From Candidatus Nitrosotalea okcheonensis (GTDB taxonomy: Archaea; Thermoproteota; Nitrososphaeria; Nitrososphaerales; Nitrosopumilaceae), in NCBI RefSeq assembly GCF_900177045.1, contig NZ_LT841358.1:955396-1019395 (forward strand): DNA of 64,000 nucleotides. Direction: 5' to 3'. Shown one piece after another: positions 15,883-22,174 of this stretch. A model generated the notes under the pieces. The model did no database searches, was not told the DNA's origin, and saw only the letters and a program-made list of their open reading frames with translations. Both the position numbers and the translations under genes were made by a program. Every line of letters starts with the position of its first letter. Within the stretch, counting starts at the first letter, position 1.

Positions 15883-17319
15883 ATGACAGAAGTAGGAAGT
15901 TATCAACTCACAGGTGACAAAGTTAAGATTCCATTAGAGTTGGCTCATTTCCTAAGGCAGGAAACATATTCGCTGCTTATCAAAGGACATACGGGAACTG
16001 GAAAGACAACACTTGCGCTCAGCATATTGAGGAAATTAAACATTGACAGAAATTGCTTATACATTTCAACGCGAGTTTCTCCAGACCAGCTTTTCCAGTA
16101 TCATACATGGATGGATGGATTTTTCAACCAGCCAAAAAAAATAGATGCCCCCCTAGATGCACCTGAAGAGGAAGAAAACATTCATCCTACATTTGTGGAT
16201 GCCAGACTTGATGAACCAGTTACACTTTTTGAGCGTATTACAAATGAGTTGATGGATGTAAGGGCTCCAATCATTATCATTGATTCATGGGATTCCATAG
16301 GATGTTTCATGGACAAGGAAGCATCAATGAGTAATTCCAAAGTACTACAAACTTGGAGAGAGCGAGCAGGTGCAAAATTAATTTTTGTTACAGAGAATCC
16401 AGAAGACAGGGCACTGGATTTTTTGGTAGATGGTATAGTAGAGCTCAGACAAAAGTATCACAATGAGCGAATAATACGTGAAATTAGACTATCCAAACTG
16501 CGCGGAGTCAGAATAAACAAGCCCTCATACATATTTTCAGTCAACAACGGTATGTTCCATAGTTATGACCACTACCACCCATCAGAGTTTCTAAATCCTG
16601 CACGTTTTCTCCAGCCCAAAGATAATGTCAGAAGAGATTTGATCAAAACCAAGTCTCATTTTACCACAGGATATCCAGAATTAGATGAAATGTTGGGTGA
16701 CGGATTTCCAACAGGATGCGCAGTTAGTGTAGAACTTGGGCCCCATGTAAGCGCCAATGTCGCACTTGCCTTTCTATGCAAAATAATTACAAATTTTATT
16801 GCAAGTGAAAATCTCTTTTTATTCCAACCTCTTGAAAAAACTGGTCAGGGTGTCATACTACAGTACGCCAAATCGCTCGGTTTGCAGAGTGATTTGATAA
16901 AAATTATTTCATCTACTACTCAACCAAAACAATCAACTGCCACCCTCAGAGATAATCCAAATAAACATCTAGATCATATACGCCAAGAAATACAAAAAAT
17001 CAAGAAAAAACACCCAAAAAAGATGTTACTTACAATACTTGGTACAGAGGTGACAGATTTATTTTCAAAAGATCCAAGTAAGCAGGACCGCAAGTCTCTG
17101 TCATTTATAAAATCAAATTCAGATCTTTCTATTTTTGTCTCAAGACGCCTGCCGGATAACAGGCATACCATCATGTCAGATATTGTAGACGTGCGTTTAC
17201 TCATAGTTGAGATTGACGGAACGCTGTGTCTCCAGTCAGAAACACCATGGTCTCACCTCTATGCAATTACTACATCGCCTGAAAATGACAATGAAATCAA
17301 TTTAGGTCCGATAGTCTAG
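15883..17319 (+). CDS. gvpD: GvpD/KaiC-type P-loop ATPase, likely gas-vesicle regulator
   Basis: A 478-residue protein with a RecA/KaiC-like ATPase fold. Walker A GHTGTGKTT is at residues 35-43, and a Walker B strand IIIIDSW at about 127-133. The second half (from about residue 260, TTGYPELDEMLGDGFP) looks like a further RecA-like domain in which the P-loop is degenerate (ELGPHVSANVA). Haloarchaeal GvpD has a similar P-loop and length and represses gas-vesicle genes through GvpE. No gvpE is seen here, so its partner could be the adjacent kinase and regulator. The gvpD assignment rests on the fold and on lying 1.6 kb upstream of gvpA; a generic RAD55-like ATPase is the alternative. Confidence 0.62.
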   Translation: MTEVGSYQLTGDKVKIPLELAHFLRQETYSLLIKGHTGTGKTTLALSILRKLNIDRNCLYISTRVSPDQLFQYHTWMDGFFNQPKKIDAPLDAPEEEENIHPTFVDARLDEPVTLFERITNELMDVRAPIIIIDSWDSIGCFMDKEASMSNSKVLQTWRERAGAKLIFVTENPEDRALDFLVDGIVELRQKYHNERIIREIRLSKLRGVRINKPSYIFSVNNGMFHSYDHYHPSEFLNPARFLQPKDNVRRDLIKTKSHFTTGYPELDEMLGDGFPTGCAVSVELGPHVSANVALAFLCKIITNFIASENLFLFQPLEKTGQGVILQYAKSLGLQSDLIKIISSTTQPKQSTATLRDNPNKHLDHIRQEIQKIKKKHPKKMLLTILGTEVTDLFSKDPSKQDRKSLSFIKSNSDLSIFVSRRLPDNRHTIMSDIVDVRLLIVEIDGTLCLQSETPWSHLYAITTSPENDNEINLGPIV

Positions 17320-17381
17320 TAGATTATCGCGCAGTTTATACAGTAAAACACCAACACACAGATCTACAGATTGACATGTCA

Positions 17382-17394
17382 TAGAACATTATAC
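17382..17394 (+). promoter_or_regulatory. TAGAACATTATAC motif upstream of histidine kinase
   Basis: The 13-mer TAGAACATTATAC occurs here and again at 18814-18826 in the gvpA promoter region. The identity of 13 bases in two upstream regions of the same locus suggests a shared regulator site; this is inference. Confidence 0.35.
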
Positions 17395-17491
17395 CATAGT
17401 GCTTAATATCCATATACAGCAAATCATTATTATCCATGCCAAGACAAAAAATACGAAAAAAACAGACAGTAACTCCTGCTTGAACAAAAAC

Positions 17492-18304
17492 ATGTCAAAT
17501 AATTTTTCCCAATTGGTTTTTGATAAGACAATAACGAAATCAAAGTTATCCCTTGACAAAGCACATACTTTTAATGCTGATGAAACGTTAAAACACAGTA
17601 AAATTCAGGACGAGTTTGTCAACATTGCAAGTCATGAAATAAAAACTCCTATCCAGTCCATATTGACATATTCCGAGCTGCTTCATTCCAATCCCAATGA
17701 AATTCATCAGGAATACATTGAGGCAATATACAGAAACGCGCTTAGACTCCAGAGATTATCCAAAAATCTTTTAGATGTTACAAAGATGGAGAACCACACT
17801 TTCACACTACAAAACGAAAAGTTTGATATCAATGAGCTTATTTTATCAACAATACAGGATTTTGTAACACGTGCACATAATTCAGGCATAAAAACTAGGA
17901 ATGTACAATTTTTGTTTTCTCCAAAGGGACGCATTTTGGCATATGCGGACAAGGATCGTATCGCTCAAGTGATATCAAATTTGATAGACAATGCCTTCAA
18001 ATTTACTCAAAGGGGAAATATTTCAACAAATGTAACCAAACAAAATGACAGGATAATTGTATCTGTTAGCGACAGTGGTATCGGCATAAATTCACAGATT
18101 GCTTCAAGATTATTTTCAAAGTTTGTCACATCCTCTGAAAATGGCATAGGACTTGGCCTATACATTGCAAAAAACATTGTTGAGGCTCATGATGGAAAGA
18201 TTTGGTTTCAAAATAATCCTAATAGAATTGGCGCTACAATTTCATTTGAAATACCATCCAAGATACGCACAAACTATCTAGCAAATCATCAGGTGTTACA
18301 GTAA
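17492..18304 (+). CDS. Soluble sensor histidine kinase of the gas-vesicle locus
   Basis: A 270-residue cytosolic histidine kinase without membrane segments or a recognisable sensor domain. The H-box is FVNIASHEIKTP (His48 from this start). The N-box region DNAFKFT, the G1-box VSDSGIGI and the G2-box GIGLGLYIAK of the HATPase follow. I chose ATG at 17492; an upstream in-frame GTG at 17399 would add 31 residues of low-complexity sequence unlike coding sequence. It stands 30 bp before a single-domain response regulator, forming a two-component pair between gvpD and gvpA. Signal and target are unknown. Confidence 0.85.
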   Translation: MSNNFSQLVFDKTITKSKLSLDKAHTFNADETLKHSKIQDEFVNIASHEIKTPIQSILTYSELLHSNPNEIHQEYIEAIYRNALRLQRLSKNLLDVTKMENHTFTLQNEKFDINELILSTIQDFVTRAHNSGIKTRNVQFLFSPKGRILAYADKDRIAQVISNLIDNAFKFTQRGNISTNVTKQNDRIIVSVSDSGIGINSQIASRLFSKFVTSSENGIGLGLYIAKNIVEAHDGKIWFQNNPNRIGATISFEIPSKIRTNYLANHQVLQ

Positions 18305-18334
18305 ATTTTTAAACATCAGGAAGCAATACAAGAC

Positions 18335-18706
18335 ATGAAAAAGATTCTAGTTGTTGATGATGAACCTGATATTACCACATCTGTAAGAAACGGATTGGAA
18401 CGAAAAGGATTCGAAGTCCACACACACAATGATCCTTTAAAGGCACTTGAAAATTTCAAGCCAGATGTGTACGATTTGATGCTAATAGACATCAGAATGC
18501 CCAAGATGAGCGGTTTTGAATTATATCGTGAAATTAAAAAGAAAAATGAGGGTAAAACAAAAATCTGTTTTTTTACTGCATTTGAAGTGTATTATGAGGA
18601 ATTTAGAAAAATGTTTCCCAACCTGGAAGTAAAATGTTTCATACGAAAACCTATCACAATTAACGATCTGGTGACACATATTAATTCAGAACTGGAAAGA
18701 AAATAA
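18335..18706 (+). CDS. Single-domain response regulator (CheY-like receiver)
   Basis: A 123-residue receiver domain with the acidic pair Asp8-Asp9 (ILVVDDEPD), phospho-acceptor Asp52 (LMLIDIRMPKMSG), the conserved Thr in CFFTAF and the Lys in FIRKPI. There is no DNA-binding output domain, so it must act by protein contact, possibly with the GvpD-like ATPase or a general regulator (inference). It is 30 bp downstream of the histidine kinase and about 180 bp before gvpA. Confidence 0.9.
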   Translation: MKKILVVDDEPDITTSVRNGLERKGFEVHTHNDPLKALENFKPDVYDLMLIDIRMPKMSGFELYREIKKKNEGKTKICFFTAFEVYYEEFRKMFPNLEVKCFIRKPITINDLVTHINSELERK

Positions 18707-18885: not shown

Positions 18886-19107
18886 ATGTCACAACAACAA
18901 ATGTACAGACCCATGCTGAATATCTACGATCTGGTAGACAGAATATTAGACAAGGGTTTAGTCATTGATGCAAACTTATCTGTGTCTCTTGTAGGAATTG
19001 AGATCCTAGTCATAAGAGCAAGAATAGTTGTCTCGGGAATTGACACCTTCCTACGATATGCATCAGCATTAGGACTTGCCGCACCACCAGGACTACCGCC
19101 CAAGTAA
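18886..19107 (+). CDS. gvpA: Gas vesicle structural protein GvpA
   Basis: A 73-residue protein with the full GvpA core: IYDLVDRILDKG, VIDANLSVSLVGIEIL, ARIVVSGIDTFLRYA. The helix-strand-strand-helix arrangement forms the ribs of the gas-vesicle wall in all known gas-vesicle makers. Length is normal for the family; the C-terminal tail is short and proline-rich. It is the first gene of a tight group (gaps or overlaps of under 25 bp) running to 22174, and has a good Shine-Dalgarno sequence. Confidence 0.92.
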   Translation: MSQQQMYRPMLNIYDLVDRILDKGLVIDANLSVSLVGIEILVIRARIVVSGIDTFLRYASALGLAAPPGLPPK

Positions 19108-19125: not shown

Positions 19126-19377
19126 TTGGCAGTATGTCTAGTTTGCGGCAAATTTACGGACATGGGCCTGAAAAAAGCAATGAGTGCAGGATGGGTCTTT
19201 ACAAGATGTCCAGAATGTCAGCGTGGAACTCCACTTGATATCATAGTATCACACCTGTTGAAAACAGTTGGAGAGGAATATTTAGAGGGATTTTGTGAGA
19301 GGCACTGGTTCAAGGATAGCGGAATTTGTGGTTACTGCAAGATGAAACGAGAGGGATCAACTGAGAGTGTCGGCTAG
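19126..19377 (+). CDS. Novel two-site zinc protein embedded in the gas-vesicle operon
   Basis: An 83-residue soluble protein with eight likely zinc ligands: CLVC (residues 4 and 7), CPEC (28 and 31), CERH (about 56-59) and CGYC (about 68-71). I do not recognise it as any known Gvp protein. It begins at TTG 19 nt after gvpA and its 3' end overlaps the next gene by 11 bp, so it is probably translated with the operon. A role as assembly factor, chaperone or redox or metal sensor for vesicle formation is possible but is inference. Confidence 0.75.
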   Translation: MAVCLVCGKFTDMGLKKAMSAGWVFTRCPECQRGTPLDIIVSHLLKTVGEEYLEGFCERHWFKDSGICGYCKMKREGSTESVG

Positions 19378-19615
19378 ACAATTAGCTCCTCAGCAGCTAA
19401 CCATAGTAGATCTGGTTGATAGAATTTTAGATAAAGGTGTAGTGATAACCGGAGATATCACCATTTCAGTCGTAGGAGTAGATCTGCTTTCATTAAAAAT
19501 AAATTTGGTAATAGCATCGTTGGAGACAGCAAAAAGATACGGAATAAAACTTCCCTGGGAAAAATGGGACAAGATACAGCCAAAAAAAATAAGCGGAAAA
19601 AACAGTAAGAGGTAA
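19367..19615 (+). CDS. gvpJ: GvpA-family minor gas vesicle protein, GvpJ/GvpM type
   Basis: An 82-residue GvpA-family protein: IVDLVDRILDKGVVI, ISVVGVDLLSLKINL, IASLETAKRYG, with a basic tail ending KISGKNSKR. The VGVDLLSL pattern and charged tail are closer to the minor proteins GvpJ/GvpM than to the rib protein GvpA. These minor proteins help nucleate or cap vesicles. Start is GTG at 19367, overlapping the zinc gene. J and M cannot be told apart reliably from sequence alone. Confidence 0.8.
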   Translation: MSARQLAPQQLTIVDLVDRILDKGVVITGDITISVVGVDLLSLKINLVIASLETAKRYGIKLPWEKWDKIQPKKISGKNSKR

Positions 19616-19623
19616 TCAGACAG

Positions 19624-20103
19624 TTGCAAAGATCTAAAATGCAAATTTCTGAACCTGCACCAGAACAAATTAATCTTGATAGTGATAAACTCCAGAAGGG
19701 ACTTGCAAAGTTAGTTCTTGTAGTAGTTGAATTGCTAAGACAAATTCTAGAGCGCCAAGCTCAAAGAAGAATCCAGTCAGGAAGTTTAACATCAGAAGAG
19801 GTCGAGAGGCTTGGCATGGCATTCATGCAGATAAAACAAAAAGTTGCACAGATATCAGACCAATTTGGCCTAAAACCAGATGAACTTGACGGTACTCTCA
19901 AAGGCATGCTCAAAACTACAGATTCCCAGATTGCCAAGACATCACTTGTTGATGTACTTGATAGTCTTCTAGTGAAGGGCGTAGTCCTAGGCGGAAGTGT
20001 AACTGTTTCTGTTGCAGACATTGACCTCATAACACTTGATCTTCTTGCCACACTTTCTGCAATCCCTGGCACTCGCAAGACTAGGAAAAAGAAAAATGGT
20101 TGA
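19624..20103 (+). CDS. gvpK: GvpK fused to a C-terminal GvpA-family domain
   Basis: A 159-residue protein. Residues about 15-90 match GvpK (LQKGLAKLVLVVVELLRQI, LERQAQRRIQSG, SEEVERLGMAFM, QFGLKPDEL). After a short linker, residues about 108-148 form a GvpA/J/S-like unit (SLVDVLDSLLVKGVVLGG, VSVADIDLITLDL). GvpK and a GvpA-family protein are normally encoded by separate genes, so this looks like a gene fusion. The TTG start at 19624 is favoured by GAGGT 11 nt upstream; ATG at 19639 is the alternative. The 3' end overlaps the next gene by 8 bp. Confidence 0.85.
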   Translation: MQRSKMQISEPAPEQINLDSDKLQKGLAKLVLVVVELLRQILERQAQRRIQSGSLTSEEVERLGMAFMQIKQKVAQISDQFGLKPDELDGTLKGMLKTTDSQIAKTSLVDVLDSLLVKGVVLGGSVTVSVADIDLITLDLLATLSAIPGTRKTRKKKNG

Positions 20104-20827
20104 TGGTAAGTACCTCTATTGTGTAAAAGAGGGATCCAAAAATCATCGCTTCAGTGATGCCGGATTATTTGGAAAACAGGCATATATCATCACCTACAAA
20201 GACATTAGCGCCGTAGTGAGTAACATACCATTCAAAGAGATGCAACCAGATGTAGAAAACCTCACGGCGCATCAGAGAGTAATAGAGGAGTCAAGATCAC
20301 TTGGTACAACTCTGCCAGTCAGATTTGGAATAATGTTCAAGACAGATGACGGCGTGAAAAAAATGCTAGTCAAATCATATGCGGACCTAAAATCCAAAAT
20401 CGTAAAGCTCAGAGACAAAGATGAGTTTGGCGTGAAAATAATCATGGACAAATCAGATCTTAAAAAGATCTCATTGATACAACATGATAATCAGGATATC
20501 GAGAAGATAAAAAAAGAGATCTTGTTGGCAGGCGAGGGAACTTCATATTTTCTTAAAATGAAGCTGGATGAAGCAATCAAGAACCAGACATATAAAAAAA
20601 TAGACCAGATAAGCGGGCAGATTCACAATGAAATTACAAAGGCCTCAGAGGACAAATGTCTTTTAAAATCAGATTTTGATGAAATAATTCTAAATGCTTC
20701 ATACTTGGTAGATCGCGATCAGAGCACCAAGTTTCATCAAAAGATAGACAATCTCAAGAAAAAGTATGAGAGTGCCGGTTTTATTTTTCACCTTAGCGGA
20801 CCATGGGCACCATATTCGTTTTGTTGA
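20096..20827 (+). CDS. gvpF: Gas vesicle protein GvpF/GvpL family
   Basis: A 243-residue protein of the GvpF/GvpL family. It has the start KYLYCVKE, the segment ISAVVSNIPFKEM, the family motif LTAHQRVIEE, then LPVRFGIMF, and the C-terminal LSGPWAPYSF that closes the family's second domain. GvpF/L proteins bind GvpA and sit at the gas-facing or nucleating tip. It is the only F/L gene in the cluster, whereas haloarchaea have both F and L. ATG at 20096 overlaps gvpK by 8 bp, implying translational coupling. Confidence 0.9.
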   Translation: MVDGKYLYCVKEGSKNHRFSDAGLFGKQAYIITYKDISAVVSNIPFKEMQPDVENLTAHQRVIEESRSLGTTLPVRFGIMFKTDDGVKKMLVKSYADLKSKIVKLRDKDEFGVKIIMDKSDLKKISLIQHDNQDIEKIKKEILLAGEGTSYFLKMKLDEAIKNQTYKKIDQISGQIHNEITKASEDKCLLKSDFDEIILNASYLVDRDQSTKFHQKIDNLKKKYESAGFIFHLSGPWAPYSFC

Positions 20828-20837
20828 GGCCAGACAA

Positions 20838-21050
20838 ATGATAATAACAGCTTTAATTTTGAAATTGACTCTTGGATCAATCCTAAATGAATGCAATAGG
20901 ATTGCTGCAGAACAACAATCAAAAGATCAAATCAGGTGGTTAAAATCAAGATTACTCAATCTTAGACTAGAATACCAAAAGGGAATAATCGACGAAGAGA
21001 CATTTAACAAAATGCAGGTTGACATCCTAAAGGATTTGGGAAGGACTTGA
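20838..21050 (+). CDS. gvpG: Gas vesicle protein GvpG
   Basis: A 70-residue helical protein whose C-terminal half has the GvpG pattern QIRWLKSRLLNLRLEYQKG followed by IDEETFNKMQ, and ends LKDLGR. GvpG is a small accessory protein usually next to gvpF, as here (10 nt gap). I start at ATG 20838 rather than upstream codons that would overlap gvpF. The N-terminus ALILKLTLGSIL is hydrophobic, as in other GvpG proteins. Its stop overlaps the TTG start of the kinase gene as TTGA. Confidence 0.8.
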   Translation: MIITALILKLTLGSILNECNRIAAEQQSKDQIRWLKSRLLNLRLEYQKGIIDEETFNKMQVDILKDLGRT

Positions 21051-22174
21051 CAGACACTTCTGACGAAACAAATAGGGCAACACTTCATGCCATTCAGGTA
21101 AAAAACATTCAAAAGCACATAAGAGAGCAAGTTGAGAAAGTAAAGGGGGATGCATTTGCCGCACGTGAAGAAACAGTGCATAAAAGAGCAGAGAAAATAG
21201 AACAAGTTAGAGAAAAATTGAACCAGACAACTCTTGACATACAACACAAACATGAAATGATAAGAGAGAGATTAAACCAAGAGGCAGTATTTAGAGAAGC
21301 AAACATCAGAGTAAGCAGAGGTCTTGAGGCACTTGAAAAATTTATTCAGGTTTTAAGAGATACTCAGATGGAAGATGAGATGCTTAAAAAAGCAATTCGA
21401 GATCCGATAATATCGGGTTCCTTAAAATCAGATGCAATGAAGATCATAACATCGGAATTCTTTAGATCCATTCAAAAACAGCTTGTAATGCAAACAGAAT
21501 TTATCAACATAGCAGCTCATGAACTGCGCACGCCAATCATGCCAATACTTGTAAATATAGAACTATTAGAAGATCAATTAGGAAAAGACAATCCAGAAAT
21601 TAAGATCATAGCAAGAAATGCAAGAAGACTCCAGCGTCTTACTGAAAACATATTAAGCGTTGCAAGGTTAGAAAGCAAATCGTTTACACTAAAGACTGAA
21701 GTTTTTAATTTAAACGATATAATTTTAGCAGTAATAAAAGATGAATCAGTCCAGTTAAGCAATGACAACATAGACATAGCATATGAAACAGATACTAAAA
21801 ACATACAAGTGGATGCAGACAAAGACAGAATTGCTCAGGTCATATACAATTTGTTGCACAATGCAATCAAGTTCACCGATATGGGAAAGATTGTCATTAC
21901 TTCAAAACATGCAAAAGACTGCGTAGAAGTAAGTGTGAGCGATAACGGAAAAGGCATAGATCCAAAAATAATTCCAATATTATTTTCCAAGTTTGTAACA
22001 AAATCAGACAAGGGAACAGGACTTGGCTTATACATATGCAAGGGAATTATTGAGGCTCATGGTGGTAAAATATGGGCTGAACCCATGTTAGAAAAACGAC
22101 AGGGAGCCAAATTCTGCTTTTCTCTACCTATGCGATCCAATATCGATTCCCCTGATCACAGCATGACTAGATAA
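21047..22174 (+). CDS. Soluble histidine kinase with long N-terminal coiled coil, coupled to gvpG
   Basis: A 375-residue kinase without membrane segments. Residues about 15-140 are charged and helical with heptad-like spacing, predicting a coiled coil. The HisKA H-box FINIAAHELRTP (His158) follows, then the N-box HNAIKFT, VSDNGKGI, and GTGLGLYICKG of the HATPase. The catalytic half resembles the kinase at 17492-18304, so the two are paralogues. TTG at 21047 overlaps the gvpG stop, so expression is probably coupled to vesicle genes. No response regulator follows; the nearest is at 18335-18706. It could sense vesicle state or feed back on the locus (inference). Confidence 0.85.
   Translation: MTDTSDETNRATLHAIQVKNIQKHIREQVEKVKGDAFAAREETVHKRAEKIEQVREKLNQTTLDIQHKHEMIRERLNQEAVFREANIRVSRGLEALEKFIQVLRDTQMEDEMLKKAIRDPIISGSLKSDAMKIITSEFFRSIQKQLVMQTEFINIAAHELRTPIMPILVNIELLEDQLGKDNPEIKIIARNARRLQRLTENILSVARLESKSFTLKTEVFNLNDIILAVIKDESVQLSNDNIDIAYETDTKNIQVDADKDRIAQVIYNLLHNAIKFTDMGKIVITSKHAKDCVEVSVSDNGKGIDPKIIPILFSKFVTKSDKGTGLGLYICKGIIEAHGGKIWAEPMLEKRQGAKFCFSLPMRSNIDSPDHSMTR

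Follow-up and report, generated by a model that had tools for sequence, protein, structure and literature searches.

In Bacillus megaterium and Halobacterium salinarum, the counterparts of the protein described here, GvpS/GvpK and GvpM/GvpK, respectively, belong to the same families but are separate proteins. Both partners are essential and have been proposed to act in nucleation together with GvpJ and GvpL (PMC11445434, PMC7688916). In B. megaterium, the contact between GvpA2 and GvpL depends on each of GvpS, GvpK, and GvpJ, which have been proposed as vesicle seeds, and GvpK proved essential in each of the four vesicle systems investigated (PMC11445434). In haloarchaea, GvpL is bound by GvpK as well as by GvpM, and GvpK was linked to GvpM in pull-downs; by split-GFP, the partner of GvpK was GvpL, and a K-M contact was not shown (PMC7688916). 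A GvpK with a C-terminal GvpA-like domain was noted for Anabaena flos-aquae in a 2024 review (PMC10903477).

The locus analyzed here lies within a stretch of 64,000 nucleotides (the window) from Candidatus Nitrosotalea okcheonensis, an ammonia-oxidizing archaeon (AOA), and encodes a protein with the cyanobacterial kind of architecture, a GvpK domain followed by a GvpA-family domain in a single chain. This order of domains was already known from A. flos-aquae (PMC10903477); added here are the archaeal lineage, the assignment of the second domain to the S type, a fusion in the reversed order, and the absence of GvpN. No paper on an archaeal or a reversed fusion was found in the open-licence literature, and text searches for gas vesicles in AOA turned up passing mentions only.

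A GvpK protein with a second gas vesicle domain

The fusion gene occupies the middle of a compact gas vesicle (gvp) cluster (Table 1). Its frame opens with TTG at 19624, with the next in-frame ATG at 19639 as an alternative start, and closes with TGA at 20101-20103. Family membership was accepted when the curated Pfam cut-off was exceeded across most of the model, and by hmmscan this was the case for both halves. PF05121 (GvpK) reached 87.1 bits (cut-off 25) over model positions 2-79 of 85, while PF00741 (Gas_vesicle) matched residues 107-144 with 41.6 bits, also against a cut-off of 25 (E 1.4e-10), over model positions 1-38 of 39. The preliminary description of this DNA, made from the letters and open reading frames, had proposed a GvpK fused to a GvpA-family domain, and both its boundaries and its identities were upheld by these matches. 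Among named sequences, the protein was most closely related to Candidatus Nitrosotalea records, one of them at 92% identity.

Table 1. Features of the gvp cluster and of the fusion gene (positions within the window)
Feature	Position	Strand	Basis or remark
gvpA, major shell protein	18886..19107	+	PF00741 E 2.2e-13; top NCBIfam match GvpA; in GvpA clade
Cys-rich zinc-ribbon-like small protein	19126..19377	+	Conserved in AOA gvp clusters
gvpJ	19367..19615	+	PF00741 E 1.9e-16; top NCBIfam match halo GvpJ
gvpK-S fusion gene	19624..20103	+	159 aa; uninterrupted frame; both Pfam cut-offs exceeded
GvpK domain, residues 16-93	19669..19902	+	PF05121 E 8.5e-25
Linker, residues 94-106	19903..19941	+	Less constrained than both domains
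GvpS-type GvpA-family domain, residues 107-147	19942..20064	+	PF00741, tree, profile scores, alignment, model
gvpF/L	20096..20827	+	PF06386 E 6.6e-56; 8-base overlap with the end of the fusion gene
gvpG-like gene	20838..21050	+	PF05120 E 4.9e-4, under cut-off; place conserved in AOA clusters

Two trivial explanations were ruled out. The C-terminal segment is not the usual tail of a GvpK, as unfused GvpK proteins from H. salinarum (119 amino acids), Octadecabacter (132), Kitasatospora (134), Spartinivicinus (110), and a non-AOA member of the Thermoproteota (109) all stop close to where the GvpK model stops, and none of the five gave a Gas_vesicle match. A sequencing or assembly artefact was likewise ruled out, the fusion being intact at 24 loci in 23 AOA genomes.

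Occurrence and selection in ammonia-oxidizing archaea

With profiles made solely from non-AOA proteins, the fusion was recovered in a single frame at every one of the 24 AOA GvpK loci detected, which belong to 23 genomes and two families. A GvpA-family domain was absent from the one GvpK of a non-AOA Thermoproteota member that was examined. The preliminary description had regarded the two families as normally separate proteins and had suggested a search for the same fusion elsewhere; it was found in other AOA and in Nostoc and is on record for A. flos-aquae (PMC10903477), so that it is not unique to the source organism. No relative was found in viral contigs or phage records. One genome (G463, contig 15) was observed to hold a second, strongly diverged gvp cluster with a K-S fusion of its own (L050, 6931-9792).

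Comparison of the window with a related locus (L012) gave dN 0.025 and dS 0.35 for the K domain and dN 0.012 and dS 0.12 for the GvpA-family domain, while the linker was relaxed (dN 0.15, dS 0.25). As dN was well below dS in each domain, both are maintained as protein-coding units under purifying selection.

Type of the second domain

Beside the fused domain, the source genome, a single 1.97-Mb contig, contained exactly two other GvpA-family domains, those of GvpA and GvpJ, and no separate S/M homologue. In a tree of 53 GvpA-family domains, resting on 50 columns, the AOA fused units formed a clade (98/90) that joined actinobacterial GvpS (94/83). A weaker group (83/68) joined the AOA fused units with all bacterial GvpS and with fusions from methanotrophs (see below). 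The AOA GvpA and AOA GvpJ proteins formed their own clades elsewhere in the tree. When the Nostoc domain was added, the deeper forks weakened and the link to actinobacterial GvpS stayed (94/81).

Profile scores for the window protein pointed the same way, with GvpS at 42.6 bits, followed by the methanotroph S-K profile (36.4), AOA GvpJ (30.4), bacterial GvpJ (27.1), haloarchaeal GvpM (26.1), and GvpA (20.6). GvpS was the best profile for all six Nitrosopumilaceae fused domains tested. Among NCBIfam models, the nearest were haloarchaeal GvpM (E 4.2e-8) and then GvpJ (E 2.9e-5), both below the curated cut-offs. By alignment, the fused domain, of predicted alpha-beta-beta form, lacks the segment after beta2 that is present in GvpA and GvpJ. 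When modeled from a paralogue alignment, the domain showed one helix and two strands (mean pLDDT 71). In Foldseek, the top matches of this model were the two solved gas vesicle shells (7r1c and 8gbs, E 0.02), and VIA-align gave no Z of 2 or more, so that these models are no more than supportive of the fold. An AlphaFold model of the whole protein, for which four close sequences were used, was of low quality (mean pLDDT 52.5) and was set aside for the fold of this domain.

An origin from the cluster's own GvpJ had to be weighed, namely, that a copy of gvpJ was captured by gvpK and provides a second J-like unit rather than GvpS/M. The gvpJ gene lies immediately upstream of the fusion gene, the fused segment is 44% identical to its product over 34 amino acids (E 2e-8), and BLASTP with the fused domain retrieved J and not A. 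In addition, the mean identity of the fused domain to AOA GvpJ (0.37) matches that to bacterial GvpS (0.35), and for Nitrososphaeraceae members the AOA GvpJ and GvpS profiles scored close together, with GvpJ slightly ahead. However, in the trees AOA GvpJ (bootstrap 95 to 99%) was separate from the AOA fused clade, the latter keeping its place with actinobacterial GvpS whether or not the Nostoc domain was included; the six Nitrosopumilaceae profile results and the missing segment after beta2, conserved in GvpJ, also speak against such a capture, which is considered quite improbable. On the tree and the profile scores, the second domain is therefore classified as GvpS type and not as the cluster's own GvpA or GvpJ, an assignment that is weaker for the Nitrososphaeraceae members. 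The preliminary description had named it a GvpA/J/S unit; membership of the GvpA family stood, and the generic GvpA/J label gave way to GvpS-like. Because the genome contains no other S/M homologue, the fusion probably supplies its GvpS/M function.

The same two domains in bacteria

Bacterial fusions were drawn from plasmid records only, so that their spread in bacteria is under-sampled. The GvpK of Nostoc sphaeroides (WP_118171797.1) resembled the archaeal protein in having GvpK followed by a GvpA-family domain (PF05121 E 5.7e-34, PF00741 E 1.5e-13) and in length (157 versus 159 amino acids). A single origin of the Nostoc and AOA GvpK parts was not rejected (AU p 0.35). The second domain of the Nostoc protein differed, however, with about 33% identity to the archaeal one and a long branch that lay nearer to the S domains of the methanotrophs. 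The clusters also differed, the cyanobacterial one having GvpN and GvpC and the archaeal one lacking GvpN.

Fusions in the reverse order, with the GvpA-family domain preceding GvpK, were found in the methanotrophs Methylocella tundrae (WP_197732044.1) and Methylosinus sp. C49 (WP_142864684.1), each of the two domains scoring over its Pfam cut-off. These proteins join the same two families as the AOA protein but in the opposite order, through a long Pro-rich linker and with a GvpK of another branch. A single clade of AOA and methanotroph GvpK was rejected (AU p 0.0096), and the two domains were therefore joined at least twice, in opposite orders. Both methanotroph genes (L016, 3593-4228; L017, 3608-4267) are annotated as GvpJ, so that automatic annotation hides their GvpK.

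In the GvpK tree, the AOA proteins stood beside actinobacterial, cyanobacterial, and one proteobacterial GvpK (81/75) and away from haloarchaeal GvpK, which grouped with that of a non-AOA member of the Thermoproteota (G001) at 100/99. This placement hints that AOA GvpK was acquired from bacteria.

Proposed role of the K-S chain

The joining of GvpK to a GvpS-type domain at least twice and in both orders points to a functional pairing of K and S. The gene is considered to encode, with reasonable though not high confidence, a natural one-chain GvpK-GvpS protein that would bring the K and the S/M function into the vesicle nucleation complex in a constant 1:1 ratio. The helical GvpK part would dock on GvpF/L, and the alpha-beta-beta S part would present a hydrophobic hairpin resembling the shell, from which the first GvpA/GvpJ ring of the cone would start. 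As the S unit lacks the post-beta2 segment of GvpA and has a helical partner attached to it, its role is probably that of a starter or cap and not that of a repeating subunit of the wall.

The preliminary description had gone further and taken the fusion as evidence that the two units touch during assembly. That K and a minor shell-type unit act together was strengthened by the independent fusion in the reverse order and by the published interaction data (PMC11445434, PMC7688916); as evidence for K-S contact in assembly, the fusion is indirect, as a gene fusion can have its reason in co-regulation or stoichiometry instead of contact. On that account, the fusion would fix only stoichiometry or expression; each part would act independently on GvpF/L or GvpN, and contact between them would not be required. 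In Streptomyces, Kitasatospora, and Spartinivicinus, gvpK is directly preceded by an unfused gene of the gvpS type, and B. megaterium has a 47-bp overlap between gvpS and gvpK (PMC11223475); these arrangements also count in favor of the one-chain K-S reading. With the genes adjacent or overlapping in several bacteria, fusion by loss of a stop codon would be easy in the S-K order, and the split-GFP data, in which GvpL was the sole partner of both K and M, also fit separate action. The archaeal and cyanobacterial K-S order, however, reverses the usual gene order, so that simple read-through does not explain it. The fusion also arose at least twice in opposite orders, and loss of S, K, or J singly abolishes the same contact in B. 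megaterium. Separate action of the two parts is therefore regarded as unlikely, and a K-S chain acting in nucleation is preferred. Such fusions are ready single-chain constructs for structural work on the vesicle nucleus, and the use of one gene for two is a testable simplification.

A gvp cluster without GvpN

The gene order gvpA, zinc-ribbon-like gene, gvpJ, gvpK-S, gvpF/L, and gvpG was conserved across two AOA families. GvpN was sought with TIGR02640 (cut-off 266.8 bits), and no match near the cut-off was obtained in the source genome or in nine other gvp-bearing AOA (G089, G138, G029, G386, G227, G463, G401, G420, and G452), whereas the positive control, the non-AOA genome G001, gave 340.8 bits (E 3e-102). 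GvpN has been described as present in all gas vesicle clusters and as needed for the cone-to-cylinder step (PMC10903477). Judged by the presence of GvpN, the AOA cluster is thus not a complete gas vesicle cluster.

It could be argued from this absence that the AOA cluster has lost the ability to make gas vesicles and that the fusion belongs to a repurposed or degenerating shell system. The presence of a single GvpF/L in the source genome would agree with this, as would the patchy distribution of the cluster (15 of 37 genomes of the genus). Yet the conserved gene order and the purifying selection on the fusion gene indicate that the cluster is not decaying, the core of its GvpA is still 54% identical on average to that of bacterial and haloarchaeal GvpA, and bicones can still form without GvpN (PMC10903477). 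Loss of vesicle formation is accordingly thought doubtful. A more specific proposal, put forward tentatively and as rather unlikely, is that AOA have a compact six-gene gas vesicle system (A, the zinc-ribbon-like protein, J, K-S, one F/L, and G) that works without GvpN and perhaps makes only small bicones, the K-S chain seeding the first GvpA/GvpJ ring. If true, it would isolate the nucleation step.

The zinc-ribbon-like gene was located between gvpA and gvpJ in all annotated AOA gvp clusters, and its product in the window matched no Pfam family significantly. In G001, a zinc-ribbon motif of the CPVCG...CPWCG type was seen fused to the C terminus of two GvpA-family proteins (L051, 9906-10623), so that the AOA protein may be an unrecognized gas vesicle factor. 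The gvp cluster of G001 also contains an Hsp70/DnaK-like gene (L051, 5304-7232) and three GvpF/L genes. The cluster in the window is bordered (15883-18706 and 21047-22174) by genes for two histidine kinases, a response regulator, and a P-loop ATPase of the GvpD/KaiC type. In the Nitrososphaeraceae, this place is taken instead by a kinase and an ATPase resembling MinD/ParA. Relatives of the window's flanking genes recur beside several related clusters, and a role in regulation is possible.
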